From the NCBI GenBank assembly GCA_029938045.1, contig JAPYOT010000015.1, positions 1 through 32,538 on the forward strand: 32,538 nt of DNA, read 5' to 3'. Within the stretch, counting starts at the first letter, position 1. Each line of letters opens with the position of its first letter. Positions 4,361-29,716 of the stretch are shown here, one piece after another. The position numbers and the translations under genes are program-made. Origin of the DNA: Fidelibacterota bacterium (GTDB lineage Bacteria; Fidelibacterota; Marinisomatia; Marinisomatales; TCS55). The notes beneath the pieces are model-generated. The model was not told the DNA's origin. It was given only the letters and a program-made list of their open reading frames with translations, and did no database searches.

Positions 4361-4365
4361 AGGGT

Positions 4366-5949
4366 TCAGAATGAAAAAGAAGTTTCTATGGATCGAATAT
4401 CAATTGTTTCGTTATCTCCGCCGATTTTCCCATCACCATTCATATCACGGAAAGATCTGCGAAATGTGTAATTCAGCACCAATCCCTGCCCCAGTGCAAT
4501 GCCCAGTTGATAGCCTAAGATCGTGCTTTCTGTATAATCGAATTTAAATGGATTCGGCACATTTCTCTGCTGATAAAATGCCCGGGCGTGCTGAATTTTG
4601 CTAACGGCCTTTTTTAGGCGAATGGATGCTAATAACGTCTGATTTTTGTCATCAATAAAATCTCCCTCTGGAGTGGACCATATTTCTCCCAGCATATCAT
4701 GAAAGGACGCACTGGCTTCAAACATGGGCCCCACATTCAGAACCATCCGCGCGAAATATCCTTTTTGTTTCCCAAACCGCCCTAACGCTGACTCTTTTGT
4801 TTTTAATAAAATTTGATTACCCCCTCCAGATGAAAAACGGATTCGCTCAATTTCGTAGAGACGGTTCCAATAATTAAATTCAAACCGACCTTTGGGCATC
4901 ATGCGATATTCAAAATAAAACCGTGCAGGGCCAAATCGCGACGAGACGCCGAATGGAACTAATCCCGTACCGAGAGATAATGATTCACCGGTCCCGGGAT
5001 GGACTGTCTCCCCTATCATCTGGGCCATTTGGGCATAGAGAGAGATAGAAAAATTATCTTGTGTCACCAAAGGATACCCAATATCCAAGGAAAATGCCAT
5101 TATATTATCCGAATCCTCACTCAAATTGATTGGATTCCCTTTGCGAAAAATATCCTGATCCAAAATGACAGTCTCTCCAGTCCAACCTGGAACTCGGCTA
5201 TCCAAAGTATCCGTAATGCCATCCCCGTCAATATCCCATTCATCGGGATTATTATCAGCTATGCCGTCCCCATCTGTATCCACCCACCAATTTTTATCAT
5301 TGGGAAAATCATCCACAATATTTGGCCGCCCATCTCCATCACTGTCTTTTAGACCCAAGTATTGATTTCGATCGGATACAATCGAAAAGCCAATGGGCAA
5401 TCCCATGACTTTCCGCGTAACAATTCTTCCACCAAATAAACCGATGTTTTCCTTGAAGTCATTAGCGAATCCTTCTATATTGTTATACTTAGTATTATAT
5501 TCAAAATTAAATCCGGTTTTTCGTTCCTGGGGATACAGCATGGTGTTGGTATAACCACTGACTAAAATACCATAGCCCAAATCCACCCGATCCAACGCAC
5601 CAACTTTTCCGTAAATACGATCACCGGGATATCCATATCGGATATAATATATTTTATCAATGAGTGTGTTTTTGATGGCATTGGCAGAAGAAAAATCCCA
5701 TTCATCTGAATGAATGTTTCCCTCTGCATCAAAATAAATAACCAGATCCAGAGCCACACCCCACTTACCAATGGGGATGACAGGCCGCATGGCAATTTGA
5801 TTCCACACCTTGCCATCAATAGTAACAGCACCCACAGCCGCTTTATTTTGAATTTGGGAATTCAATGGCATTAGGCAAACCATAATAATAACGAGAAATA
5901 TGTTCCGAGGGTTTCTCATACGAGAGGAGAAATTACTCTGACCACCCAT
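4366..5949 (-). CDS. Predicted outer-membrane beta-barrel protein with a thrombospondin type 3-like calcium-binding insert
   Basis: This 527-aa protein has a signal-like hydrophobic stretch at residues 17-30. A second ATG (residue 11, position 5919) would give a tidier signal peptide and may be the true start. Residues 202-250 hold three Asp-rich TSP3-like repeats (DSDGDGRPN, DTDGDGIAD, DIDGDGITD), which bind Ca2+ in other proteins. The rest alternates aromatic and polar residues in beta-strand fashion and the protein ends in ETSFSF, a terminal Phe as favoured by the barrel assembly machinery. This suggests an outer-membrane barrel with a calcium-stabilised surface loop. The function is not recognised. 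It is the first gene of the operon leading into alaS. Confidence 0.7.
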   Translation of the reverse strand: MGGQSNFSSRMRNPRNIFLVIIMVCLMPLNSQIQNKAAVGAVTIDGKVWNQIAMRPVIPIGKWGVALDLVIYFDAEGNIHSDEWDFSSANAIKNTLIDKIYYIRYGYPGDRIYGKVGALDRVDLGYGILVSGYTNTMLYPQERKTGFNFEYNTKYNNIEGFANDFKENIGLFGGRIVTRKVMGLPIGFSIVSDRNQYLGLKDSDGDGRPNIVDDFPNDKNWWVDTDGDGIADNNPDEWDIDGDGITDTLDSRVPGWTGETVILDQDIFRKGNPINLSEDSDNIMAFSLDIGYPLVTQDNFSISLYAQMAQMIGETVHPGTGESLSLGTGLVPFGVSSRFGPARFYFEYRMMPKGRFEFNYWNRLYEIERIRFSSGGGNQILLKTKESALGRFGKQKGYFARMVLNVGPMFEASASFHDMLGEIWSTPEGDFIDDKNQTLLASIRLKKAVSKIQHARAFYQQRNVPNPFKFDYTESTILGYQLGIALGQGLVLNYTFRRSFRDMNGDGKIGGDNETIDIRSIETSFSF

Positions 5950-6011
5950 TGGAGTTCAATCTCTAATTCCCGTTCCGCACATGGTTCTTTCCCCCTAAAT
6001 TCTTTTGTCCT

Positions 6012-6320
6012 ATGGCTCATATTTCTCAACCCACGACAGAAGATTTGACTTCCTATTCACCAGAGGAAATTAAAATTTATATTTTTTCTTTGCAGGATGC
6101 ACTTCAATCAAAACTGAATAGCGGATTATCCATGGATGATATCCTGGACTCGGAAGATCCATTTGAATCCTTGGAACCTCTCCTCCCTCAGGAAGTTTAT
6201 CCTATTTTAGTATTAGCCATGATTAATAACATTCGAACCGATACCGTCATAGATGCGGTGCTGGCAGGACTGAAACAAGGAATCCAGCAATTCCGGAACA
6301 GCGGTGATAATAATTCGTAA
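6012..6320 (+). CDS. Hypothetical protein, acidic, 102 aa
   Basis: I do not recognise this protein. It is acidic and predicted mainly helical, with no signal peptide, membrane span or Cys cluster. An N-terminal half rich in Ser, Glu and Asp (SPEEIKIYIFSLQDALQSKL, then a DDILDSEDPFESLEPLLPQE segment) is followed by a more hydrophobic helical C-terminal half. It is probably a small cytosolic helical protein. It is the first gene of a plus-strand operon diverging from the TSP3-barrel gene, with only 62 nt between the two starts. The reading frame is supported by the tight packing with the next gene, which begins 4 nt (or, from an alternative GTG, inside it). Confidence 0.62.
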   Translation: MAHISQPTTEDLTSYSPEEIKIYIFSLQDALQSKLNSGLSMDDILDSEDPFESLEPLLPQEVYPILVLAMINNIRTDTVIDAVLAGLKQGIQQFRNSGDNNS

Positions 6321-6324
6321 AAAT

Positions 6325-6933
6325 ATGATGCGTTTCATCCTGCTACTCTCCCTAACCATTTTACAATCCCAATCTATTTGGATTCAGGATATTGATATTT
6401 CGACAAAAAAGAATGGTATCTTTATCAAAGTACGCTCCGATAAACCAATCACCCCAGACCAAGTGTCGGGATGGTATAATGAATCCACATCCTGGTATTA
6501 TATGACCCTACATAAAGCAAGCGGGGATACAGCCCAATTGGAAAAAGTACGCCTCACCTACCCCGTTAAACAAATTGAATGTGTCCGAGCGGGAGAATCT
6601 CTTCAAATTGGATTTCGCTTGGGCACATCAGTAGAACAGTCTGAATTTTATCATGCATCCGATCCGCCTGAACTACTGGCCTCCCTCCGGTTTCCTCTGT
6701 CCGAAGTTTTGGCATCGATCGCGCAGGAAAAACCATCGCCGCCGCCTTTGATTGGAAGGACTAGGGTGAAAAGGCCTTTTTGGATTAAAGGCGCTTATTT
6801 CATTGGAGCAAGCCTAACAGGTGCTGGGTTCCTTTCAGGTGAAACGCAAAAAGGATGGGAAATCCCTGTGGGAATGGGAATTATTGCCGTCGCATATGTG
6901 GCTGAAAACTTTATTATTGGGAAAAAGAAATGA
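6325..6933 (+). CDS. Hypothetical exported protein with C-terminal membrane anchor
   Basis: Translation from the ATG at 6325 gives 202 aa. A GTG at 6304 in the same frame overlaps the previous gene and adds seven residues (MIIIRKN) before the signal peptide, so the ATG at 6325 or 6328 is preferred. The N-terminus is a signal peptide (MMRFILLLSLTILQSQS). A domain rich in predicted beta strands of about 110 residues follows; its pattern is loosely reminiscent of AMIN-type domains, but this is only suggestive. After a Pro-rich linker (EKPSPPPLIGR) come two hydrophobic segments and a basic end (IIGKKK). It is likely periplasmic and held in a membrane. Its stop overlaps the start of the 36-aa membrane peptide (ATGA). 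Confidence 0.68.
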   Translation: MMRFILLLSLTILQSQSIWIQDIDISTKKNGIFIKVRSDKPITPDQVSGWYNESTSWYYMTLHKASGDTAQLEKVRLTYPVKQIECVRAGESLQIGFRLGTSVEQSEFYHASDPPELLASLRFPLSEVLASIAQEKPSPPPLIGRTRVKRPFWIKGAYFIGASLTGAGFLSGETQKGWEIPVGMGIIAVAYVAENFIIGKKK

Positions 6934-7040
6934 CCGATAATTTACCTTACTTCGCCTGGTATTATGTTGGCGGTATTATACTGATGGCTCTTTTTTATCG
7001 CCTACGACTTCATCTGAAAGGGAAAAATCAAAAAAAATAA
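6930..7040 (+). CDS. Small single-span membrane protein, 36 aa
   Basis: This short frame encodes 36 residues starting MTDNLPYFAWYYVGGIILMA, followed by a basic tail rich in Arg and Lys (LFYRLRLHLKGKNQKK). The single hydrophobic segment (about residues 7-23) with positive charges after it predicts an inner-membrane peptide with its C-terminus in the cytosol. Its ATG overlaps the TGA of the upstream gene (ATGA at 6930-6933) and its TAA overlaps the ATG of the protease gene (TAATG at 7038-7042). Two exact start/stop overlaps make chance unlikely and imply translational coupling. In size and topology it resembles CcmD-type helper peptides, but no sequence identity is claimed. The function is unknown. 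Confidence 0.72.
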   Translation: MTDNLPYFAWYYVGGIILMALFYRLRLHLKGKNQKK

Positions 7041-8791
7041 TGAAGCAACGCATTGCAACATTATTGTTTATCGCAAACAGTTGGGCTGGTATACCACAAC
7101 AGTCCATAGCTGCGGTTATTTCTGCCTTTTCTGATCATCCAACTCAGGATCGGCACCTGACTCCCCATTTATTGGAAATCGCCAAGCATGGACATGATTT
7201 GAATGCCATAGAACGAACCCAATTGGAAGCAATCGGTTTTAATTTCAATTATCCCCTTGTATCCAGAAGCGCCGCCCTCCGTTCAGAAGCAGTGGGATTG
7301 GATCAGTATTTTGACAATGGAATCTTCCGTTTTCATTTCACCACCACGGGAAGGAATGCAGTGAATACGACCGATGATAATAATGATGGGATTCCAAATT
7401 ATATTGATTCCGTGTCCGTTGTTTTCAATATAATTTCCAATGGTATTCATAAAGGACAAGGATATTTGATGCCACCCAGTGATGATTTTTATACCAGCAA
7501 TCGGGATAAGGGCGGTTCTGAACATTATGATATTTATATCCGAAATATATCTTCCCGATATTATGGTTATACCCAACCGGAGGAATTTGCCCAGGGAAAA
7601 GGTGACAATGAACGATCCAAAACAGTTGTAGAAAAAAATGCTTTTACCAGTTATATGGTCATCAGAAACAATTATATAAATTTTCCCTTACCTGAATTAG
7701 AAAATATTAAAGTAACGGTCGCCCATGAATATTTCCATGCAATTCAATTTGGGTATGATGGATGGGAAATGCCCTGGCTTCTGGAAGCATCTGCTGTATG
7801 GATGGAAGAAGAAATGTATGATGATATCAATGATTGCTATCAATATATGTCCGATTGGTTCAATCAACCCCATCGGTCACTGGATGAAGATGGGTATCAT
7901 TGGTATGGTTCATTCATCTTTTTTGAATATATAGCACAGCATATGGGTGGCGCAAAAACCATCCGGCGATTATTTGATGAATCGGTTCAATCCGATAGCC
8001 GAGAAAGGGACGGTAGCCACGCCGCTTTAAATGCGTCTCTCAAGCAACAGGGATTTTCTTTTCAGCAGGCGTTAAATGGCATGTCAGTTGCGAATAAAAT
8101 TATGTCATCATTACCCGCTGCAGACAATTTTGCATACGATGAAGCTGAATCCTACCCTGTTGACGGTCCGGCTATTCTGAAAAAAGTCAATTTTCAAACC
8201 GGAAATCGTGATACCGTTTTTTCCACAAGACTATCTCGATTCGCCAGCCAATACGTTCAAATAATCACGCAAAAACCGGTTCAGGTGGATTTAATCAATA
8301 CCAGCGGACCCATGTCCGATCTTCAACTAAATGCCATTCTCAAGAAAAATGATAATTCCTATTTAGTCATTTCCAGTCCATCCATCAATATTGATCCGGT
8401 GGAATTAAAATCGATTCACCTATCTGTTGTCAGCCATGATACAGTTGGGGGCGACTGGAATTATCAATTGGCCATTCAGGATGGAAAATCAGGAACCGAT
8501 GCCAATGTGCCGGTAGAATTCACTATTGGGAACCCATATCCAAACCCATTTAACGGCAATGTTCAGTTTTCCATCTACATGCTGAAGGAATCTTCCGTTT
8601 CGATTGATGTTATTGATTTGAGTGGGAAACGAGCGAAGCGACTTTATAAGGGAAATTTATCAACGGGAAATCACAATTTTAATTGGCATGGGAAAGATAG
8701 TTCAGGGAATCAAGTAGCATCCGGCGTGTATTATATCAAAGTATCGGGGAAATCTTCTGAAGACTGGCGTCCTGTTACGTTTGTGAAATAG
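7040..8791 (+). CDS. Secreted HExxH metalloprotease-like protein with type A (T9SS) C-terminal sorting domain
   Basis: This is a 583-aa protein with an N-terminal signal peptide (cleavage around residue 17-25). A short Asp-rich, TSP3-like segment (DDNNDGIPNYID, residues 112-123) precedes the catalytic region. The zinc motif is VAHEYFHAIQFGYDG with His229, Glu230 and His233; a likely third ligand is Glu249 in WLLEASAVWMEEE. This arrangement resembles the MXAN_6640 family of putative metalloproteases. From about residue 493 a FlgD-Ig-like sorting module begins (NPYPNPFNG at 498), with the usual LSGKRAKRLYKG and GKDSSGNQVASGVYYIKV blocks. Such modules direct type 9 secretion. The substrate is unknown. 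It is the last gene of the 6012-8791 operon. Confidence 0.85.
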   Translation: MKQRIATLLFIANSWAGIPQQSIAAVISAFSDHPTQDRHLTPHLLEIAKHGHDLNAIERTQLEAIGFNFNYPLVSRSAALRSEAVGLDQYFDNGIFRFHFTTTGRNAVNTTDDNNDGIPNYIDSVSVVFNIISNGIHKGQGYLMPPSDDFYTSNRDKGGSEHYDIYIRNISSRYYGYTQPEEFAQGKGDNERSKTVVEKNAFTSYMVIRNNYINFPLPELENIKVTVAHEYFHAIQFGYDGWEMPWLLEASAVWMEEEMYDDINDCYQYMSDWFNQPHRSLDEDGYHWYGSFIFFEYIAQHMGGAKTIRRLFDESVQSDSRERDGSHAALNASLKQQGFSFQQALNGMSVANKIMSSLPAADNFAYDEAESYPVDGPAILKKVNFQTGNRDTVFSTRLSRFASQYVQIITQKPVQVDLINTSGPMSDLQLNAILKKNDNSYLVISSPSINIDPVELKSIHLSVVSHDTVGGDWNYQLAIQDGKSGTDANVPVEFTIGNPYPNPFNGNVQFSIYMLKESSVSIDVIDLSGKRAKRLYKGNLSTGNHNFNWHGKDSSGNQVASGVYYIKVSGKSSEDWRPVTFVK

Positions 8792-10991: not shown

Positions 10992-11443
10992 TCGGAAAAT
11001 AGAATGGTTTGGTCGATTTCTATTACTTCCTGATCTTCCAATTGGATAGCTCTTTGTAGGTGAGGTGTTTTATCCAGGACTACAATAGGTAAATTTCCGG
11101 AAGCCATAAATGAATCTATTTTTGCAAAAAATACGCCGGGATCTATGGTTAATCCTGCACCAGCAATAAAATAAAATCCCGGCTCAAGTTGAAAGAAATA
11201 TTCAGATTTTTTGGATGGAGAAAGCATAGGCGTGCTATAAGAAACAAGTCCCGCCGCGAGGTTGCCTGGATCTAAACTTTTCAAAACAATCAAGGCTACA
11301 GCTTGAATTGAATCGGGCCATTCCCCCTCAATAAATAATTTCCCCTCTACACCGGCTACCGGTTCCAGGCTATCCGGTGATTCACAACTCCAGATGAATC
11401 CAAGGACAGAAAATATTATTATTAATTTGCAGATTAATTTCAT
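10988..11443 (-). CDS. Hypothetical lipoprotein, probable partner of the adjacent TonB receptor
   Basis: This 151-aa protein has a lipoprotein signal peptide (hydrophobic core followed by GFIWSC, acylated Cys20). The mature part opens with an acidic linker and a beta-rich segment (VEGKLFIEGEWPDSIQAVAL), then FFQLEPGFYFIAGAG, reminiscent of a small transthyretin- or prealbumin-like fold. No known family is recognised. Its start overlaps the stop of the GNAT-like gene (ATGA at 11440-11443), and its stop overlaps the start of the TonB receptor. By analogy with SusD-type partners it may cap or feed the receptor, but it is far too short to be a SusD, so that role is inference from gene order alone. 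Confidence 0.72.
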   Translation of the reverse strand: MKLICKLIIIFSVLGFIWSCESPDSLEPVAGVEGKLFIEGEWPDSIQAVALIVLKSLDPGNLAAGLVSYSTPMLSPSKKSEYFFQLEPGFYFIAGAGLTIDPGVFFAKIDSFMASGNLPIVVLDKTPHLQRAIQLEDQEVIEIDQTILFSE

Positions 11444-12156
11444 TTGAGTAATTCCGGGTATCCTAAAATTACAACCACATCACCATTATAAATATCCATT
11501 CGTTCCCAAATTGGTGCATGTTCCTTAGACGGTTGTGGTGTATTCACTAAGACTTCTCCTTCAATCAAGGAATGTTGAACGGAATAGGCATCTACTTCAG
11601 GAATAAGCCAACGCGCAATATCGACCGCCGCAGGATTAATAAAATCTGCCCTAGGTGAAACCATTAGCCCCCGCTGTTCGCACATGAGAGTAAAGTATTT
11701 ATATACAATGGGGTTTTGGGTTCGGACTAAAAATATATCTGCGGGAAGGATGGCGACCTTTAGTTCATTGATTAAGGGATAAATCCCCTGGTTTTGAATA
11801 TTTTTGTTCAATATGGTTACGCGAAAATAATTAACTATTTTACGCTCAATCTCATACCCTTCATTGATAGAGAAACCAATGATATTTTTATTTTCATCCA
11901 GGATGTGAATCCAAAGATCCGCATTCTGATTGCGGTGGATGAATGCATCCAAGCCAATATCGTTCCCCAAACCATTTTTGGACACCGTATGGTGTTGGCC
12001 AATGATATCCATCACTTTAGACGATTTACGTGTTTCTATATCCGGCCAACGCTTTTTAGGCTGGATGATTTCAATATCAAATCCCTGGTTCATGGATTTT
12101 AAATGTTCCAATAGAGATTGAGCCTGGGGAAGTGATTTATAGTCGGTCCTAGTCAT
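11440..12156 (-). CDS. Unrecognised cytosolic protein, possibly GNAT-like fold
   Basis: This 238-aa soluble protein has no signal peptide or membrane span. The central part resembles a GNAT acetyltransferase core: a strand with NIIGFSINEGYEI, a strand followed by RVTILNKNIQNQGIYPLI (compare the acetyl-CoA-binding Q/R-x-x-G-x-G/A loop), a helix, then IFLVRTQNPIVYKYFTLMCE near the C-terminus. The glycine loop is degenerate (QNQGIY), so coenzyme binding is uncertain. It lies 46 nt after comM and overlaps the lipoprotein gene (ATGA), placing a cytosolic protein in a TonB-receptor operon. The family assignment is tentative; treat it as hypothetical unless a structure prediction confirms it. Confidence 0.5.
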   Translation of the reverse strand: MTRTDYKSLPQAQSLLEHLKSMNQGFDIEIIQPKKRWPDIETRKSSKVMDIIGQHHTVSKNGLGNDIGLDAFIHRNQNADLWIHILDENKNIIGFSINEGYEIERKIVNYFRVTILNKNIQNQGIYPLINELKVAILPADIFLVRTQNPIVYKYFTLMCEQRGLMVSPRADFINPAAVDIARWLIPEVDAYSVQHSLIEGEVLVNTPQPSKEHAPIWERMDIYNGDVVVILGYPELLK

Positions 12157-12202
12157 TTGGTATAAGGTGTTTCCAATCGGGAAGTTAATTATGAATTATG
12201 AA

Positions 12203-13741
12203 TCACCCCAACCAGAGTTGCCGATCTAAACTTCTATATTGGATGGCTTCGCTGAGATGGGTTGCATCTATATCTTTGGCATGACTTAAATCGGCAATGG
12301 TTCTGGATACTTTCAATATGCGGTCGTATGCCCGAGCCGAAAGGCCCAGTTTATCCATGGCCGTTTTTAATAATGCACCTGCCTCTTTGGATAATTGGCA
12401 ATACTTCTTCAGATCATTCGATTCCATCTGTGAATTGGAGAAAATGGGAGCATTCTCATATCGATTCAACTGGACTTGTTTCGCATCCTGCACTCGGGAT
12501 TTCACAGCTTTGGATGGCTCTCCCGGATCGCGATCGGCCAACTCCGTAAAAGGAACCGCCGGCACCTCTACATGAATGTCAATCCGATCTAACAAAGGTC
12601 CTGAAATGCGGCTCATATATTTCTGGATCATCTGCGATGTACAACTGCATTCGTTATGGGCATCTGTGGCATAGCCGCAAGGACATGGATTCATAGCTGC
12701 CACCAGCATAAATCGAGATGGATAGCTCAAACTCACAGCGGCGCGGGCAATAGTGACAACACCATCCTCCAATGGCTGTCGCATGACCTCCAGTACATTC
12801 TTTTTGAATTCCGGTAATTCGTCCAAAAATAATACACCATTATGAGATAGACTTACTTCTCCCGGCCGGGGAATGGCGCCGCCCCCAATTAACCCAGCAT
12901 CTGAAATAGTATGGTGAGGCGATCGAAACGGTCGCGTGGCAATAATGCCCTCACCTTGGGGCATGACGCCCGCTACAGAATGAATTTTGGTGGTCTGAAG
13001 CGCCTCTTCTAATGTGAGGTCCGGGAGAATAGTGGGAATTCGTTTCGAGAGCATGGTTTTACCACTCCCAGGTGGACCGATCATAATGAGGTTGTGTCCA
13101 CCGGCGGCGGCCACTTCTAAGGCCCGCTTCACATGCTCCTGCCCTTTTACATCGGTGAAATCGAGATGATAATGGAGATTGGAGTGAAACAATTCATGCC
13201 GATCAACAACGACTGGCTCTTTGTCCAATTCATCATTCAGGATTTGCACCACTTCCATGAGGGATTTTGCACCGACCACTTTCACTTCATCCACAATACC
13301 CGCTTCCCGAGCATTTTCTTCTGGGAGGATGATGCCCTTAATTCCTTTATCCCGGGCGCAAATGGCAATCGGTAAGGTTCCTTTCACCGGGCGAAGTGTT
13401 CCATCTAATGCCAATTCACCAAGCATCATGAGTTTATCTAAATATTCTTTTTGGATGTAACCCATAGCGGCGAGGATTCCAATGGCAATAGGCAGATCGA
13501 ATGCAGATCCTTCTTTGCGAATATCCGCCGGGGCGAGATTCACAGTTACATGTTTTCGGGGAAATTTGAATCCGGAGTTTTTAATGGCGGCGGTAACACG
13601 TTCTTTACTTTCTTTCACCGCCCCTTCCGGGAGACCTACTGTTATAAATCGGGGAAGTTTTGCGCCGGAGAGGCTTGCCTCCACATCCACCACATAGGCA
13701 TCAATCCCGAGGATGGCACTACTGAGTACTTTAGCAGGCAT
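12203..13741 (-). CDS. comM: YifB/ComM family Mg chelatase-like AAA+ ATPase
   Basis: This 512-aa protein is standard family length. The N-terminal LonC-like domain (residues 1-170; EASLSGAKLPRF, GLPEGAVKESKERV, GELALDGTLRPVKG) is followed by an AAA+ Mg-chelatase module. Its Walker A is GPPGSGKT (222-229), Walker B is VLFLDELPE (303-311), and a sensor region follows. A Cys cluster (CPCG at 353-356, CSC at 365-367) lies in the MNPCPCG motif, and the C-terminal lid domain contains RAYDRILKVSRTIADL. ComM homologues are hexameric helicases that promote branch migration during natural transformation. Whether this host is transformable cannot be told from here. Upstream is a 176-nt gap that should hold its promoter; the GNAT-like gene follows after 46 nt. 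Confidence 0.95.
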   Translation of the reverse strand: MPAKVLSSAILGIDAYVVDVEASLSGAKLPRFITVGLPEGAVKESKERVTAAIKNSGFKFPRKHVTVNLAPADIRKEGSAFDLPIAIGILAAMGYIQKEYLDKLMMLGELALDGTLRPVKGTLPIAICARDKGIKGIILPEENAREAGIVDEVKVVGAKSLMEVVQILNDELDKEPVVVDRHELFHSNLHYHLDFTDVKGQEHVKRALEVAAAGGHNLIMIGPPGSGKTMLSKRIPTILPDLTLEEALQTTKIHSVAGVMPQGEGIIATRPFRSPHHTISDAGLIGGGAIPRPGEVSLSHNGVLFLDELPEFKKNVLEVMRQPLEDGVVTIARAAVSLSYPSRFMLVAAMNPCPCGYATDAHNECSCTSQMIQKYMSRISGPLLDRIDIHVEVPAVPFTELADRDPGEPSKAVKSRVQDAKQVQLNRYENAPIFSNSQMESNDLKKYCQLSKEAGALLKTAMDKLGLSARAYDRILKVSRTIADLSHAKDIDATHLSEAIQYRSLDRQLWLG

Positions 13742-23261: not shown

Positions 23262-24452
23262 TTAGCGGAAAGCTGAAAGAGAAACCCATTGGGTCATAAC
23301 GCGACCGTTTTCGCCCCCCTCAGTCCAGGCAAAGAAGAGTTGATCATCCACTATTTCCATCTGGGGATAACCGGAAACACGCCCCGGTTGAATTTCAGAA
23401 ACGATTCGCGGTGTTTGAACATTTCCAGATTTAGATACTATTGAAGTAACGATATCGGTTGTTTCTTCTGCCATTTCAATCCAACTGACCATGACTTCTG
23501 TTTGGCTAATCCATGTTAAATCTACCCGGCCAATTGGTTTAGATAAATCGACGCGAATAGGTGCAGAAAATGAGGCGCCGTCATTATGTGAAAATGCCAC
23601 ATTAACTGTGGGCGTTTCATTGGGTGAAGTATACCAGGCAATGGCCAAATCATTCCCATTAGCAGCCAGCATGGGGCCATTTACGGGGCAGCCGCCAATT
23701 AACCAATTGTCCTCATGAACGGGATAGGGTTCAAACCATTTACCATCCGCATAACGAATAATATTAATATCGCGGATTTCTTTTTCAGATCGGTCACGAT
23801 AGGCAATGATTAAACTATTTCCCGTTTGAATAGAACTGGTGGGACAACATTCACACACCCGGTTGTCCAGCATTGCTTCTGTACCCAATTGACCATCCAC
23901 CATGGTGGAATGATATAAGGCCATATCTCCCATAGAATGGGTCACAGGATCATAGGCGCCCATGTGGCGGCCATCCAGCCATACAAACCCCAGGGATGCA
24001 TCCTGCTGTTGGAAAAATGATAAAAATCCATGCTCCCCTTTTGGATCAATATCGCCATGAGGAATCACCGATTCAGACCATGATTTACCCCGATCTTTGG
24101 AATGGGATATTTGAACATTATAATCGTAAGGACCATTTCCGCTTTTTTGAAGCCAATGAGACACCAATTGATCCCCGCCCACTTCATAAATAGACGGAAA
24201 GTCGGCCCAGTTCACAAAGTAAGGATCCCCGGATGTAATGGTTTGGCCTTCTGTCCATGTTCCTTTCGAAAATTCAGACCATTGTAATGCCCATTGTACC
24301 GAATCAACCTTCTCAAACCAGGACATGAGGAGTCCACCATTTTCTGTAGCAGAAACACGGGGATACCGACTGCCATTCATTGTAGACGGAAGAGAGAATT
24401 CAGGGGTTGAACACCCAAGAAGAAATAGGGATAGAAGAATGTATTTTTTCAT
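23262..24452 (-). CDS. Asp-box/sialidase-like lipoprotein with a CxCC cysteine cluster
   Basis: This 396-aa protein has a lipoprotein signal peptide (LFLLGC, acylated Cys14). The mature part looks like a six-bladed propeller with Asp-box turns (SKDRGKSW near 118, HNDGASF). The unusual feature is a Cys cluster at VCECCPTS (Cys200, Cys202, Cys203) with a further Cys255 in GGCPVNGP. These are the only cysteines apart from the lipid-bearing one. They could bind a thiophilic metal or form disulphides. The usual sialidase arginine triad and nucleophile Tyr-Glu pair are not evident, so exo-alpha-sialidase annotation would rest on fold alone. It follows the HMA lipoprotein gene after 91 nt and may belong to the metal-handling block. 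Confidence 0.75.
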   Translation of the reverse strand: MKKYILLSLFLLGCSTPEFSLPSTMNGSRYPRVSATENGGLLMSWFEKVDSVQWALQWSEFSKGTWTEGQTITSGDPYFVNWADFPSIYEVGGDQLVSHWLQKSGNGPYDYNVQISHSKDRGKSWSESVIPHGDIDPKGEHGFLSFFQQQDASLGFVWLDGRHMGAYDPVTHSMGDMALYHSTMVDGQLGTEAMLDNRVCECCPTSSIQTGNSLIIAYRDRSEKEIRDINIIRYADGKWFEPYPVHEDNWLIGGCPVNGPMLAANGNDLAIAWYTSPNETPTVNVAFSHNDGASFSAPIRVDLSKPIGRVDLTWISQTEVMVSWIEMAEETTDIVTSIVSKSGNVQTPRIVSEIQPGRVSGYPQMEIVDDQLFFAWTEGGENGRVMTQWVSLSAFR

Positions 24453-24543: not shown

Positions 24544-24873
24544 TTATTGACCTTCCGGCATTTTACAGCAGAGTTCCAAATTGGCATATGCATCGGGATC
24601 TGCCTTTTTATCATTGACACTATACCCTATAGATGTAATGGCTTTTTCTATGGCTGGGAAATCAATAAGCGATGCCTTATAGGTCACTTTTCCTGTTTTG
24701 GCTTTCAAGTCGATTTCAACTTTCTTTACGCCTTCAAGGTCAGCAACAGCTTCTTCCACGCCCATTGAACACATCATGCATTGCATGGAGTCTAATTTCA
24801 ATTCAGCCGTTTTGGTATCGCTGCTGCAGCTGATTAAAAAGCTCATCGCTATTATACTAATGATTGATTTCAT
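24544..24873 (-). CDS. Lipoprotein with a heavy-metal-associated (HMA) domain
   Basis: This 109-aa protein has a lipoprotein signal (FLISC, Cys16), so the HMA domain is outside the cytosol. Residues 25-90 form a typical ferredoxin-like HMA fold: the metal loop MQCMMCSMGVE (Cys32, Cys35, flanked by Met), VEEAVADLEGVKKVEIDLKA, KVTYKA, and AIEKAITSIGY. The tail adds another pair (Cys102-Cys103) and Met. HMA domains bind Cu+, Hg2+ or Zn2+ through the CxxC pair and pass the metal to partners. Here the likely role is periplasmic capture or delivery. An AGAGGA ribosome site lies 5 nt before the ATG. It follows the multicopper oxidase after 92 nt, which supports copper, without proving it. Confidence 0.9.
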   Translation of the reverse strand: MKSIISIIAMSFLISCSSDTKTAELKLDSMQCMMCSMGVEEAVADLEGVKKVEIDLKAKTGKVTYKASLIDFPAIEKAITSIGYSVNDKKADPDAYANLELCCKMPEGQ

Positions 24874-24965: not shown

Positions 24966-26711
24966 TTACCGAATCAAAACCATTTTTCGCGTCCGATGTT
25001 CCCCGTTCATTTTGAGGGTATAAAAATATATCCCTGAAGGCATATACCTTCCAAAATCATCTTTTCCGGACCAATAACTTTTATACATACCAATGGGTTG
25101 ATATGCGGTGACCAATGTGGCAACTTTCTGGCCCGAAATATTATAAACGATTAATTCTACTGAACCCGGTTGAGATAATTCATATTGAATAATTGTTTTT
25201 GGATTAAATGGGTTTGGATAAGATGGATGAAGTAAAAAATCTTTCGCAATTAATGGAAATTCATCCACACCTGCCAACATATCTACCACAATAAACTGGC
25301 CCATCATTCCAGCGTCCTCGTGGTTCAAAATATGACAATGGTACATGTAGGGAACTTCATCGTCAGCGAAATCCCTGAATTCAGTGATAAATCGAACTGT
25401 TTCCTGAGGTTTCACCAATACAACATCCTTCCGACCACCTTCCGCCTTGGATGGTTTCACACCATTCCTATTTAATATATAAAATTGCACATCATGAATA
25501 TGGAATGGATGGGCAATTGGCGATTGATTTGTGATTTCCCAGATTTCAGTATTGTTCAATGGAATAATTTCATTAATAACATCCATATCAAAACTTGCAC
25601 CATTTATTAAAAAATCTCCATTGAGTGCCACTTGCCCCATGGAAACTGCAGTTAATGAGAAGGTCCTTGTTGTATCTGCATTAATTTCTGCCAATGGGGT
25701 CACTGACACCAAAGTTTCTGGAATTGTTGTAACAGGATTACTGGTCGGTGCTACCACTTTGAATTGAATGATTGAAAAATCAGAACCATTCAGTGGGTTG
25801 GGATTATACCCATCCAACGTCATGCCCGCACCCATTCCCGGATTGGTGGCACCATAAATGCCATTGCCAAATTCTGAAGCATAACTCATCAAGGAGATTG
25901 TTTGACCTTCCATCGATGAGAAATCGATCAATATCTCCGCCCTTTCTCCCGGGGAAAGCTGAAGACGGGTTATTGCATTGGTACTTTCTAATAATCCCCC
26001 GTCTGATCCAATTTGAGAAAATGACCTATTATCACTTAACCCAATGTTAAATACGCGCTGGGACGCACCATCGAGTAATCGAAAACGCACCACTTGTGCC
26101 GGCACATTTAATTGAGCATTAATAGTTGCATTTACCATCAACACATTGTCTGAATTTGAAGGGACTACAATTTCTTTATTGCTATCAAATGTTTTGGTTT
26201 GAATCACCAAAGGAAAATCGTCAACCCCGTAAGATCTTGGCAATGTCAATGCTGATTCTTCACTATCCCTTATGATGATAAACCCGGCAATTCCCATTGA
26301 CACATGTAAATTCGTTTTTGTATGCAAATGGGGATGATACCAAAAGGTGGTTGCTTTATCCAATACTGTAAATTTAGGATTCCATGTGACGCCCGGAGCA
26401 ATGGTTGTATGTGGACCACCATCATTCTCAGCAGACACATGCATGCCATGCCAGTGGATCGTAGTTGTATCCGCCAATTGGTTGGTGACTTTAATATCCA
26501 CAGAATCACCATTATTCATAATCAAGGTTGGGCCAAGAATATTTCCATTGGCGCCCATGGTGGCTGTATTAATGCCTTCATAAAAGGAATACGTTCCATT
26601 CTGAAGGGTTAAGTTAAAATCAGTCCCACTGAGTGTATCGGGGATAATGAGTGAATTTTGGGCGAATGAAATACTCAGTAATCCCAATAGTAATAATAGT
26701 ATTTTTTTCAT
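24966..26711 (-). CDS. Secreted multicopper oxidase with type A C-terminal sorting domain
   Basis: The frame extends to a TTG at 26834, but the ATG at 26711 starts a signal peptide (MKKILLLLLGLLSISFAQ) and has an AAGGAAT ribosome site, giving 581 aa. All four copper motifs are present: HWHG (86-89), HPHLH (126-130), HPFHIH (401-406) and HCHILNHEDAGMM (458-470). The His-Cys-His cysteine 459 and axial Met make the type 1 site, and the others the trinuclear cluster. Such enzymes oxidise Cu+, Fe2+, Mn2+ or phenols with reduction of O2 to water. From residue 495 a sorting module follows (PSYPNPFNPKT, YNISGQKVATLV, PSGIYFYTL). It suggests release to or display on the cell surface. Unlike CueO it lacks an obvious Met-rich copper insert. 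Confidence 0.95.
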   Translation of the reverse strand: MKKILLLLLGLLSISFAQNSLIIPDTLSGTDFNLTLQNGTYSFYEGINTATMGANGNILGPTLIMNNGDSVDIKVTNQLADTTTIHWHGMHVSAENDGGPHTTIAPGVTWNPKFTVLDKATTFWYHPHLHTKTNLHVSMGIAGFIIIRDSEESALTLPRSYGVDDFPLVIQTKTFDSNKEIVVPSNSDNVLMVNATINAQLNVPAQVVRFRLLDGASQRVFNIGLSDNRSFSQIGSDGGLLESTNAITRLQLSPGERAEILIDFSSMEGQTISLMSYASEFGNGIYGATNPGMGAGMTLDGYNPNPLNGSDFSIIQFKVVAPTSNPVTTIPETLVSVTPLAEINADTTRTFSLTAVSMGQVALNGDFLINGASFDMDVINEIIPLNNTEIWEITNQSPIAHPFHIHDVQFYILNRNGVKPSKAEGGRKDVVLVKPQETVRFITEFRDFADDEVPYMYHCHILNHEDAGMMGQFIVVDMLAGVDEFPLIAKDFLLHPSYPNPFNPKTIIQYELSQPGSVELIVYNISGQKVATLVTAYQPIGMYKSYWSGKDDFGRYMPSGIYFYTLKMNGEHRTRKMVLIR

Positions 26712-26830
26712 TTTGATTATTCCTTTAAAAGTATGGTGATAATTCGTATGTGTATCCAATTGAATTGAAATAGATGGAAACACCTCGTACCTATTTAGAT
26801 GGTTGTTTTTATCAACGGTTACAATATTTT

Positions 26831-27358
26831 TCAATTTTCTAATCCACTCGGTCGGTTTTTAAATATTAAAACGATCGTAATAAGGATTATTCCAATTTCT
26901 ATCCAGAATAATAATCCATTGTCCATATAGAATGAAAAATAAGGGTTTTGGACCATTTCCCAGACAGGTAGTTGTCCTTGTTCTGGTTGAATTTGATAGA
27001 GGAAATAATCTTTATCGCTGAATGGGTAAAGCCATTTTATTCCCACGGTTCTGGCTGTAATCCAATCCGTGATAAGATGCAGTTGTGTGCCTAAAAATAT
27101 GCCCAATGAAATTGGTTTAATTTTTTTATTCTGTATTATTCTACCTACAAAAACCATGAGGCCAAATATTACAATCCAACATATGGGTGTATGCAAAATG
27201 GAATGGTGACCAGCAACGGTTTCAGACATTAAGCCGTCCACATCGGGTAAAATGGAAGCTATGAGTAATACTGGCATAAACGGAGATATAGTCCATAATG
27301 GACTTTTAACAAATTGTCCCAGAATATATCCGGATGCTAAATGGGATGGTAGGAACAC
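26831..27358 (-). CDS. Membrane-bound metal-dependent hydrolase-like protein (DUF457/YdjM-like)
   Basis: This 175-aa protein is translated from a GTG at 27358, 8 nt after the preceding stop. It has hydrophobic segments near residues 25-40, 58-75, 90-98 and 150-168. Conserved polar positions fit the family: His6 in PSHLASGY, Asp in ILPDVDGL, GHHSILHTP, and HLITDWITA. Members are small inner-membrane proteins related to phospholipase C-type metal-site hydrolases; YdjM of E. coli is LexA-regulated. The substrate is unknown. It precedes the multicopper oxidase by 119 nt and follows the NTF2-like lipoprotein, so it lies within the metal block though its own role in metal handling is unsupported. 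Confidence 0.78.
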   Translation of the reverse strand: MFLPSHLASGYILGQFVKSPLWTISPFMPVLLIASILPDVDGLMSETVAGHHSILHTPICWIVIFGLMVFVGRIIQNKKIKPISLGIFLGTQLHLITDWITARTVGIKWLYPFSDKDYFLYQIQPEQGQLPVWEMVQNPYFSFYMDNGLLFWIEIGIILITIVLIFKNRPSGLEN

Positions 27359-27366
27359 GGATTATT

Positions 27367-27657
27367 TTATTTTACAGGTTTACTGACTGATTGGGTATGC
27401 ACAACTTTCCAGGTATCATTTATCCATCGAAATAAATAAGTCCCGTGACCTTTGTTATGGATCTTGCGACCACCCCCTTCAAAATACCGAGCCTCGTCCC
27501 AATCCAAAAAATGTTTACGGAAAGCAGCGCCAGCGCCATTTTCCCAACCGAGGCGAATATTATCAATAATATTTTTAATTAATGCTTCATTGTAATCGGC
27601 CATGCTATTTCCACAACCAACCAGGGTTAATGTTAAAAAGAATATTAAATTTTCCAT
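27367..27657 (-). CDS. Shortened NTF2/SnoaL-like lipoprotein
   Basis: This 96-aa protein has a lipoprotein signal (TLVGC, Cys15). The mature 81 residues look like the two ends of a NTF2-like (DUF4440/SnoaL) domain: the first helix and entrance strand (IRLGWENGAGAAFRKHFLDW, then ARYFEGGG at 56-63) joined directly to the last two strands (GHGTYLFRWINDTWKVVHTQ, 71-90). Normal domains have about 45-50 more residues in between. The frame is open and the ribosome site (AAGGGAG) is good, so this appears expressed rather than decayed, but the fold may be incomplete. It sits between the outer-membrane barrel gene and the DUF457 gene. The length comparison is from memory of the family. Confidence 0.65.
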   Translation of the reverse strand: MENLIFFLTLTLVGCGNSMADYNEALIKNIIDNIRLGWENGAGAAFRKHFLDWDEARYFEGGGRKIHNKGHGTYLFRWINDTWKVVHTQSVSKPVK

Positions 27658-27697: not shown

Positions 27698-28501
27698 TTA
27701 AAACACAAAGCCAATCCCGGTTTGAACCATAACACCTTTTGAAAGGCTGGCCTTATCCGCATATTCGCTCACAGGAATCTTTATATCAATCCGTGCCATA
27801 ATGCCTCCCTTATACAGCACGGCAACGGGGCCAGTGAATAGGCGAAAATCTTCGTTTCCATCTTTATCTATCTTCGCCTGATATGTACCATCCCACATAA
27901 GAAAAAACCCAGTATTGGTTGCGTTTATATGAAGAGGGTGCCACCCGAGATTCACATCAAATCCAAATAAAGTTGATCCATCATCCAATGACCAGCCATA
28001 GATGTCATATAACTGGTAATATTTGAAATTTTCTGCATTGTAGGAGAGGCTTAATCCATAGCCCCCTTTACTGGGAAGGATATCAGTGTTATCGCCTGTT
28101 TTAAACCGGATCTGAGGTGTAACACTATAGTTGCCAGTTGATCGATTTAAATTAAAGTATTTTTTCAATGGAAGGGCAACAATCAAGTCACCCAGTCCTT
28201 TATGGCGAACAATAGGGTTTCCCCAATCAATTAATTGTTTTTCACTCTTAATTTGATGATAAGGCAGTTTAAAGGTGGCACGGATGGATCGCTTCCAGGT
28301 ATATACGCCTTCGAGCCATGTGGTTTGACGGTAATAACTTTTATCTGATATCGATCCACCGTCTAACATTTTATCCGAGCCCAGTGTTTCATACCTGAAC
28401 TGGAATCCCCAACCCCCTGCCCAGCGCGGTGCCATATCCATAACGGGTTGATGGGCCGAAACGATTCCCAGGAGACTGAGAATCACCATACTTTTATTCA
28501 T
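27698..28501 (-). CDS. Predicted outer-membrane beta-barrel protein
   Basis: This 267-aa protein has a signal peptide (MNKSMVILSLLGIVSA) and a mature part of alternating aromatic and polar residues typical of barrel strands (WGFQFRYE, LGLGDL-like turns such as KGLGDLIVALPLKKYF, YSVTPQIRFKTGD, GYGLSLSYNAENF). It ends VQTGIGFVF with a terminal Phe. It resembles the broad MetA-pathway/transporter-type small barrels annotated near metal genes, but no specific family is certain. Its start lies 8 nt after the stop of the MerT-like gene, so it is probably co-transcribed; a pore or sensor for the same metal is a reasonable inference. The mature N-terminus has His and Met residues (HQPVMDM). Confidence 0.75.
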   Translation of the reverse strand: MNKSMVILSLLGIVSAHQPVMDMAPRWAGGWGFQFRYETLGSDKMLDGGSISDKSYYRQTTWLEGVYTWKRSIRATFKLPYHQIKSEKQLIDWGNPIVRHKGLGDLIVALPLKKYFNLNRSTGNYSVTPQIRFKTGDNTDILPSKGGYGLSLSYNAENFKYYQLYDIYGWSLDDGSTLFGFDVNLGWHPLHINATNTGFFLMWDGTYQAKIDKDGNEDFRLFTGPVAVLYKGGIMARIDIKIPVSEYADKASLSKGVMVQTGIGFVF

Positions 28502-28509
28502 ATTTCCCC

Positions 28510-28890
28510 CTATAAATCGAAGTAAACGAGGATAGGAACCAATGCATAAGCAAAGAATGCGCCCACGGCCAAAACACTTGCGGAAATATAAAACATCCGT
28601 TTGTTGAATCGCCCAGTCACATCACATCCGTCCTCACCCGCATCCACATCACAAGCCACTTTCTGGTTCGGTTTAAAAACCAAATATCCATTAAGGGCAA
28701 TCAGAATGGCAGCAATAATAAATATCCATCCTTTATTCATGGAAAGGGGAATTAAAAATGGGAATACGGAAAGCATGGAACTAACGGCTGCGCCGCCTGC
28801 TATGGTGGCAACCACCGCGGGGAGCACACAGCATAATAAGGTGCCTGAAGAAGTAAAAAGAGTTAGGACACTTATGGCCTTTTCCTTCAT
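28510..28890 (-). CDS. MerT-like inner-membrane metal transporter
   Basis: This 126-aa protein has three to four hydrophobic segments (about residues 5-33, 34-50, 54-72, 97-122). The first carries LLCCVLPAVV with adjacent Cys20-Cys21, matching the CC-V-L-P motif in TM1 of MerT and related carriers. A loop after TM3 has a second pair (Cys80 and Cys89, ACDVDAGEDGC), where MerT also has a cysteine pair. MerT moves Hg2+ from periplasmic MerP into the cytosol. The gene overlaps the upstream HMA protein gene as ATGA, exactly the MerP-MerT logic, although here the order is HMA first. The metal cannot be told; no merA or merR is in the window. Confidence 0.78.
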   Translation of the reverse strand: MKEKAISVLTLFTSSGTLLCCVLPAVVATIAGGAAVSSMLSVFPFLIPLSMNKGWIFIIAAILIALNGYLVFKPNQKVACDVDAGEDGCDVTGRFNKRMFYISASVLAVGAFFAYALVPILVYFDL

Positions 28891-29276
28891 TTGGAGGCCT
28901 TTTCGTATTCTTTTACCTTGAGTTCGGATCCAGTAGGATTCACATAGGATTTAAGGACTTCATAGCCCGCATCCGTAATTACATTCAGTGCTTTATCAAT
29001 ATTCGGCTTCTTATTCTTTTTTAAACCAACTTTGACAAATTGATGGGTGATATCCGTATAAACACCTTTGGTGTATTTTTTCTTATCCACAAACTTCATT
29101 TTGGATAGGCCTTTTTGCAAACCGTGTGCACAAAAAGAACACACGAGACCTTTTACTTGAAAGACCAAGTCTTCTTGACCGACTTCGACTTTTTGACCAT
29201 TAATTTCAACTGATTGCCCATAGGATAATCCAGCCAAACCAATGGTAAATATGAGATATTTAATAATATTTCGCAT
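28887..29276 (-). CDS. Exported HMA-domain protein, MerP-like
   Basis: This 129-aa protein has a cleavable signal peptide (residues 1-20, ending GLSYGQ). The HMA domain (about residues 36-110) contains the CxxC metal loop VKGLVCSFCAHGLQKGLSKM (Cys46, Cys49), then a strand (FVKVGLKKN) and helix (IDKALNVITDAGYEVL). A 15-residue Lys/Glu-rich tail follows. Compared with MerP (about 72 mature residues) it has an added loop rich in Lys (FVDKKKYTKGVYTDITH). Its stop overlaps the MerT-like start, so the two should be made together. It is likely the periplasmic donor to the CC membrane protein. An AAAGGAA ribosome site precedes the ATG, downstream of an intrinsic terminator. Confidence 0.88.
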   Translation of the reverse strand: MRNIIKYLIFTIGLAGLSYGQSVEINGQKVEVGQEDLVFQVKGLVCSFCAHGLQKGLSKMKFVDKKKYTKGVYTDITHQFVKVGLKKNKKPNIDKALNVITDAGYEVLKSYVNPTGSELKVKEYEKASK

Positions 29277-29299
29277 AAAACAAATTCCTTTCTTGAATT

Positions 29300-29327
29300 A
29301 AAAAACCATACCGCCTTCTGTGGCGGT
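29300..29327 (-). terminator. Intrinsic terminator or attenuator ahead of the MerP-like gene
   Basis: On the minus strand ACCGCC, loop ACAGAA and GGCGGT form a perfect GC-rich 6-bp stem, and six T residues follow after a 4-nt spacer (ATGG). It lies 17 nt after the stop of the Cys-rich protein gene and 24 nt before the MerP-like start. It could end the upstream transcript or allow partial read-through (attenuation) into the MerP/MerT-like operon. The 4-nt gap makes it weaker than ideal. Confidence 0.62.
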
Positions 29328-29344
29328 TTAGAAAAGAAAAATGT

Positions 29345-29716
29345 TTACGCTAGGAGAGGTCGATTAAATGCGGTGGGTGGGTCCGGTGGATAATCAAATT
29401 CCACCGGATTAAAATTAATGTGATATTTTGCATAAAATTCAATGGATTGAACTACAGTCAAAACATCCAAGTCTATTTTCAAATTGAACTGATGAGATGG
29501 TACTGCCATTATGGGTATAAATAAACCACTCATGTCGCAGCTTTTCATATCCATATAACAGGTTTTTGGAGTTTCCACTTCCATCTTAGAATCACAACAG
29601 GTTACCTTTTCTAATTCACAACATGGCATGTCGCAATCAATGTGCGGCAACAATGGCGCTGCGATGGCCATTGTCATCAATAACAACAAAAAGACTGAAA
29701 TAGTACGCTTAAGCAT
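29345..29716 (-). CDS. Exported Cys/Met-rich small protein, putative metal binder
   Basis: This 123-aa protein has a signal peptide (MLKRTISVFLLLLMTMAIAA). Right after it lies a thiol-rich segment (residues 25-61) with seven Cys, arranged as CDMPCC, CC, C and C, plus His25 and several Met; none occur in the rest of the protein. The C-terminal half (residues 66-123) is hydrophobic to aromatic and ends PPDPPTAFNRPLLA, a tail style seen in small uncharacterised proteins next to copper genes in FCB bacteria (from memory). It is a likely periplasmic metal sponge or sensor. It follows the 2H phosphoesterase gene by 23 nt and is separated from the MerP-like gene by the terminator at 29300-29327. Confidence 0.72.
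   Translation of the reverse strand: MLKRTISVFLLLLMTMAIAAPLLPHIDCDMPCCELEKVTCCDSKMEVETPKTCYMDMKSCDMSGLFIPIMAVPSHQFNLKIDLDVLTVVQSIEFYAKYHINFNPVEFDYPPDPPTAFNRPLLA

Follow-up and report, generated by a model that had tools for sequence, protein, structure and literature searches.

The window, that is, the entire 32,538-nt stretch of DNA analysed here, is one contig of a 1.72-Mb metagenome-derived genome of a marine bacterium (~91% complete) and carries what is probably (probability about 0.6) a copper-stress operon of Neomarinimicrobiota, in which a nascent leader protein would provide Cu(I)-responsive control over a thiol route consisting of a secreted HMA protein, a three-helix membrane protein (hereinafter, the carrier) and an outer-membrane barrel (Table 1). 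We conclude that the carrier belongs to the MerT superfamily and has been placed in a copper regulon, and we infer from this placement that it transports copper and in which direction. Given that the operon looks to be switched by a copper-sensing leader, a mercury-type carrier has seemingly been taken over for copper.

Table 1. Features of the window and of related loci discussed in the text.
Sequence	Feature	Coordinates	Strand	Remarks
Window	BNR-repeat-like lipoprotein, recurring in the same cluster	23262-24452	-	
Window	HMA lipoprotein, CMMC site	24544-24873	-	Pfam HMA 8.9e-13, CopZ 1.6e-14
Window	CueO-like multicopper oxidase with type IX secretion tail	24966-26834	-	likely start near 26711
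Window	YdjM-type membrane protein, recurring in the same cluster	26831-27358	-	PF04307 3.9e-15
Window	96-aa protein	27367-27657	-	
Window	Outer-membrane-type protein, apparent mature N-terminus HQPVMDM	27698-28501	-	weak BLAST link to PF13557-type proteins of relatives
Window	Carrier, MerT-superfamily three-helix membrane protein, Cys20-Cys21/Cys80/Cys89	28510-28890	-	126 aa
Window	Secreted HMA (MerP/CopZ-like) protein, CSFC site, Lys-rich insertion	28887-29276	-	129 aa
Window	RNA stem, bases after leader stop pairing with HMA Shine-Dalgarno region	29277-29344	-	
Window	Inner hairpin ACCGCC/GGCGGT followed by T-run, terminator-like	29310-29327	-	pattern scan
Window	Secreted Cys-rich leader protein, CxxxC, C-terminal PPTAFNRPLLA-stop, CutF-like	29345-29716	-	123 aa
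L038	Gracilimonas carrier gene	5959-6417		frame-broken
L075	Vibrio plasmid carrier gene	~7001-7360		unannotated
L076	Vibrio plasmid carrier gene	6989-7348	+	unannotated
L032	MerA-like FAD oxidoreductase with in-frame TGA	11313-12770	-	
L033	MerA-like FAD oxidoreductase with in-frame TGA	6102-7559	+	
L110	MerA-like FAD oxidoreductase with in-frame TGA	3404-4801	-	

The carrier, its HMA partner and MerT

An earlier note on this DNA had described the HMA and carrier genes as a MerP/MerT-like pair, and the anatomy that it reported is borne out: the HMA stop and the carrier start share the tetranucleotide ATGA, Cys46/Cys49 of the HMA protein and Cys20-Cys21 (CCVLP), Cys80 and Cys89 of the carrier are all present, and the extra Lys-rich loop of the HMA protein is an insertion after the first helix, with D64-K65 invariant. 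Among the 12 loci that are complete at this junction, the two genes overlap by 1-11 nt in ten (by 4 nt in six) and are spaced by only 3 nt in the remaining two, so the overlap is not due to chance. Cys20, Cys21 and Cys80 are conserved in 16 of the 16 carrier relatives and Cys89 in 15, the exception being a frame-broken copy. The carrier contains three hydrophobic stretches, and its Cys-bearing loop is the one richest in Lys/Arg.

The HMA protein is a secreted ferredoxin-like domain with a CxxC site, the signal peptide having been judged by eye. Its AlphaFold2 model (pLDDT 82.6) adds an N-terminal hairpin to the ferredoxin-like domain, and its best structural matches are CopZ (2qif) and further Cu(I) HMA domains, MerP (1osd and 1afi) ranking lower; the match to the Pfam HMA profile is weak (E 0.12). 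The model of the carrier is poor (pLDDT 61), too poor for placing the cysteines on one path, and the Foldseek matches obtained with it are meaningless; PDB sequence searches with the carrier found no match.

Profile comparison, one of the checks proposed in the earlier note, relates the carrier to MerT as a separate sister family. When aligned by hhalign with 16 bona fide MerT sequences from the same phylum, the carrier family yields a probability of 96.4% (E 1.2e-9, score 57.7, identity 16%), and the CC, Cys80 and Cys89 fall on the MerT cysteines, all four in register. The best of 60 block-shuffled controls scored 29.3 and the reversed control 18.8; on these grounds, we rejected an unrelated CC protein as the identity of the carrier. 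None of the 16 family members matches the Pfam MerT profile (PF02411) at E<=1; 15 of the 16 are hit by the NCBIfam MerTP profile (NF033556), the strongest at E 1.8e-6, which still falls well short of the profile's cut-off. In the phylogenetic tree, MerT and the carrier family occupy separate branches (100/100), and the mer-linked copies from Neomarinimicrobiota and Gracilimonas form a supported group (98/97). The relatives on Vibrio and Variovorax plasmids retain the same four cysteines. Judged from sequence, the carrier is a sister family of MerT, without being a member by the MerT profile.

Leader protein and RNA stem upstream of the HMA gene

In the 15 aligned loci (the window and 14 others), the leader displays the pattern C-x-x-x-C-C...CC, with CxxxC present in all 15 and an export signal judged by eye. 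The C-terminus conforms to [PS]L[LI][AIC]-stop in 15/15, the remainder of the protein being divergent, and PP is found within the last 15 residues in nine of the 15, including the window. The DUF2946 (PF11162) profile matches none of the 15 leaders and exceeds its cut-off in none of the 245 genomes of the phylum.

The leader-HMA gap measures 48-77 nt, and the outer stem, which hides the HMA ribosome-binding site, starts 1-5 nt past the leader stop in 15/15 loci. The fold of the window stem (-20.6 kcal/mol, z -4.5) was not equalled in any of 200 shuffles. Because column-wise pair counts would have required a better MAFFT alignment of the leader gaps than was obtained, co-variation was assessed by arm-swapping among 13 distinct loci, L034 and L037 having been dropped from this and the background comparison as near copies; pairing was -10.7 for own arms versus -6.6 for crossed arms (0/100000 permutations). 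A z<=-2 was reached by 12 of the 13 leader gaps versus none of 41 background gaps; six leader gaps have z from -4.3 to -5.6, and two leaderless gaps (L103 and L108; z -0.8 and +0.6) contain no stem. The meaning of the inner hairpin is unsure because locus L022 has no T-run behind its counterpart.

The leader family is present in 72 of the 245 genomes. Beyond the operons already read, 40 leader stretches were fetched, one of which (L194) was too short to read, leaving 39 loci. The first ORF following the leader encodes an outer-membrane efflux protein (OEP) in 33 of these and CusB in one (HMA, DUF4396 and others in the other five), which places leader homologues ahead of copper/silver efflux genes of the CusC/CusB type in 34 of the 39; the CusB-type motif YxCPMHP appears ~2.4-2.65 kb downstream in 18 of the 39 and farther in one. 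The hidden ribosome site recurs as well, with z<=-2 in 25 of the 35 usable gaps (55-130 nt; 0/20000 permutations), although ten miss this threshold and some of the start codons, picked by script, are doubtful. Within the window's own genus, the leader precedes the OEP gene in six genomes read that have no carrier and the HMA-carrier-barrel genes in the three genomes that have one. In one of these three (G088), a second leader lies at a contig end, with no readable partner.

Genomic settings of the carrier and of the HMA-barrel pair

The carrier family was found in 16 of the 245 Neomarinimicrobiota genomes, with a profile search adding one weak match (E 0.008), and, outside the phylum, in Gracilimonas and on two Vibrio plasmids; no relative was found in the viral contigs searched. 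The carrier relatives adjoin an outer-membrane protein gene, and overlap with the HMA gene is usual. One setting, linked to MerR or mer, comprises four genomes of the phylum (G070, G190, G191 and G193) and the two Vibrio plasmids; in the second, to which the window's clade belongs and which lies outside such links, the order is leader, HMA, carrier and outer-membrane protein. In G190, G191 and G193, the carrier is located near HMA proteins, a PF13557-type outer-membrane protein and a CopZ-type 2Fe-2S chaperone, and in G190 and G193 it is preceded by a MerR-type regulator (144 bits in G193, cut-off 151); this regulator, with three spaced Cys, obtains its highest score as MerR (144 bits vs 122 for CueR). 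G191 encodes merB and a MerA-like oxidoreductase in the same stretch as the carrier, and G070 true merA and MerT ~17 kb away from it. The cluster on the Vibrio plasmids runs from a MerR-type regulator through a GDCCVxC protein, the carrier and a secreted HMA to an outer-membrane-type protein; copper resistance genes adjoin this cluster on one of the two. In view of such neighbours, the carrier family, taken overall, retains ties to mercury, and its substrate may differ between clades.

Several of these loci display irregularities. The carrier gene is unannotated on both Vibrio plasmids, where the CDS annotated as 'heavy metal-associated domain' has been given too early a start and runs across the carrier in a different frame, and the Gracilimonas gene is frame-broken beyond the first loop cysteine. 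A 3.4-kb contig labelled Gammaproteobacteria (L037) encodes an HMA protein of the Neomarinimicrobiota kind (84% identity) and the start of a carrier (94%), and is probably mis-binned. Three MerA-like FAD oxidoreductases, two of which adjoin merB, lack the C-terminal CC of MerA and contain, at the position of the first redox cysteine, an in-frame TGA (GGT-TGA-VNEGC); because, in addition, tRNA-Sec scores over the cut-off in all three genomes, these enzymes are likely selenoproteins.

That the pair occurs without the rest of mer, as originally proposed, is correct for the window, where no MerA, MerB or MerR was found beside the carrier, and for its ~91% complete genome, which contains no PF02411 MerT, no MerB and no MerA over the cut-off; it does not extend to the family, which elsewhere sits with MerR, merB and a MerA-like enzyme. 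The best MerA-profile match in the window's genome (356 bits, cut-off 454) was rejected as a mercuric reductase and taken for a lipoamide dehydrogenase because of its apparent lipoate/2-oxoacid dehydrogenase gene neighbours and missing C-terminal CC. A search of this genome for heavy-metal P1B ATPases was negative, and the partner that normally handles cytoplasmic copper is therefore either missing or unassembled. Support for avoidance of P1B ATPases by carrier genomes is unclear, as these enzymes are present in 5/16 carrier genomes versus 5/10 carrier-free congeners.

The copper-type neighbours mentioned in the earlier note are real; in the window they are an HMA lipoprotein and a multicopper oxidase resembling CueO. 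The oxidase contains the Cu-oxidase_3 and Cu-oxidase_2 domains and the His motifs of the copper sites, and scores 366.7 bits against CueO, below the cut-off of 525. The 96-aa protein resembles an internally shortened copy of a 161-aa protein encoded in the same place in L022.

By contrast, the pairing of the HMA and MerT-like proteins needs correction: the constant pair is HMA plus the outer-membrane protein. HMA is found in 33 of the 245 genomes, 21 of which lack the carrier. The outer-membrane gene directly follows HMA in all eight carrier-free loci read and the carrier in all 12 window-type loci possessing one; in every leader-type locus read, it follows either the carrier or HMA. These outer-membrane proteins, of two families, share a conserved His after the apparent signal peptide in 18 of the 18 window-type or HMA-only loci compared, whereas the mer-linked ones have no such N-terminal His, the cleavage site in this comparison being our own judgement. 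A P1B ATPase adjoins the HMA-barrel pair in G109. Four small pelagic genomes of 0.8-1 Mb (L102, L103, L108 and L109) retain the pair without leader and carrier.

Proposed function and comparison with known systems

The anatomy of the operon suggests that the secreted leader would sense periplasmic Cu(I) through its CxxxC during its own synthesis. The metal would slow export of the leader, the ribosome would pause at the leader end and cover the first bases past the stop, and the stem would open and free the HMA ribosome-binding site, as for CutF. The periplasmic HMA chaperone, the inner-membrane thiol carrier and the outer-membrane barrel may then act together as a single thiol route spanning the envelope. 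The carrier, homologous to MerT by profile, would move Cu(I); removal, from the cytoplasm via carrier and HMA to the barrel, is favoured over uptake since the regulon serves efflux and oxidation, direction being the weakest step of the scheme. That HMA, carrier and barrel constitute a small ATP-free copper-removal route over both membranes, replacing CusCBA behind the same sensor, is a tentative and rather doubtful extension.

The idea, put forward in the earlier note, of a mercury-carrier fold re-used for another metal thus survives in part, with MerT homology and copper-type regulation and neighbours for it and the mer-linked relatives elsewhere against it. For the copper reading, we count MerT homology, the leader features, the controlled RNA pairing, the Cus-type company, the multicopper oxidase and the P1B ATPase of G109; against it count the MerR- or mer-linked relatives in G070, G190, G191, G193 and Vibrio, the lack of a DUF2946 match, PP in only 9/15 leaders, the carrier pLDDT of 61, the missing P1B ATPase and, in the available part of its description, CruR, a similar leader that works the other way, controlling a copper-repressed transporter. 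The stem itself might do no more than terminate transcription or damp translation to a fixed extent, the leader sensing nothing; the T-run of the window would fit, but its absence from L022, the constant spacing of the outer stem from the leader stop, the conservation of the leader C-terminus while the remainder diverges, and the stemless gaps of leaderless L103 and L108 make this quite improbable. That a small hydrophobic protein with no kinship to MerT acquired the cysteine pattern by convergence or chance is highly improbable: low identity and the 16 missing Pfam matches agree with it, but the hhalign score of about twice that of the best shuffled control, the MerTP matches, the register of the four cysteines, the HMA partner and the MerR-linked relatives do not.

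The two remaining alternatives concern metal and direction. MerT-type carriers are known as importers. This role, together with the lack of a P1B ATPase in the window's genome and the precedent of CruR, could mean that the module imports scarce copper for cuproenzymes under a leader acting in the CruR sense (copper = off); we consider this unlikely, given that homologous leaders in the phylum precede efflux genes in 34 of the 39 loci read, that the stem position fits the CutF mode, in which a paused ribosome opens the stem, and that a copper oxidase is part of the same operon. Alternatively, HMA and the carrier could still import Hg(II), to be handled by a non-mer reductase or buffering thiols, as might be expected from a sister family of MerT with a relative clustered with merB and a MerA-like enzyme (G191) and, in G193, a regulator scoring higher as MerR than as CueR. 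This reading is unlikely, considering that the window has no adjoining MerA over the cut-off, MerB or MerR, that the leader family heads Cus-type operons and that import without reduction would harm the cell. Copper-stress control by the leader, with the HMA-carrier-barrel route under it, is the reading that we retain.

The carrier family, on the margin of the mercury-carrier superfamily, occurs in a mercury-linked and a copper-linked setting, and therefore substrate choice of MerT-type carriers becomes testable by comparison of sister proteins. With the leader family, which the DUF2946 profile misses, CutF-like copper sensing by a nascent peptide would reach into Neomarinimicrobiota, and the leader-HMA stem is a concrete candidate RNA switch. 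The HMA-barrel pair, occurring with no pump, prompts one to ask how copper crosses the outer membrane in such cells. Literature searches found nothing joining 'MerT-like' and copper, nothing on CutF in Marinimicrobia itself and nothing on SAR406, copper and multicopper oxidase; the term Marinimicrobia is absent from the available part of the CutF text (PMC9973294).

MerT has three helices, with CC in the first and a further two Cys in the loop that joins helices 2 and 3, and an HMA partner. The carrier shares all these features with MerT/MerTP but has no PF02411 match and forms its own tree branch; in the window's clade, it also lacks an adjoining MerA, the leader and neighbours being copper-type. 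Similarly, the HMA protein resembles MerP and CopZ in its ferredoxin-like fold and CxxC site, and differs by the extra N-terminal hairpin, the Lys-rich insertion and the weak Pfam HMA score.

According to the accessible portion of its description, CutF of the Rhodobacter capsulatus cutFOG operon is a short leader with a Sec-type signal and CxxxC upstream of copper genes, a stem-loop hides the Shine-Dalgarno sequence of the next gene, and CutF relatives most often lie upstream of OEP/Cus-type efflux genes (PMC9973294). The window leader is likewise short, exported, equipped with CxxxC and followed by copper genes and a stem over the next Shine-Dalgarno; however, it has no DUF2946 match, ends in PL[LI]x with PP in only some family members, and heads HMA-carrier-barrel genes. 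CruR of Bordetella, as far as the accessible text goes, is comparable in sensing copper as a nascent leader and in having a Cys motif together with an arrest motif at its C-terminus, but, unlike the window leader, has CXXC, RAPP, a 162-nt spacer and Rho termination, and heads the operon of a TonB-dependent transporter turned down by copper (PMC9426467). Finally, CusCBA copper/silver efflux genes of this phylum are preceded by the same leader family, whereas in the window operon, which has no RND pump, the HMA-carrier-barrel genes occupy the same place.
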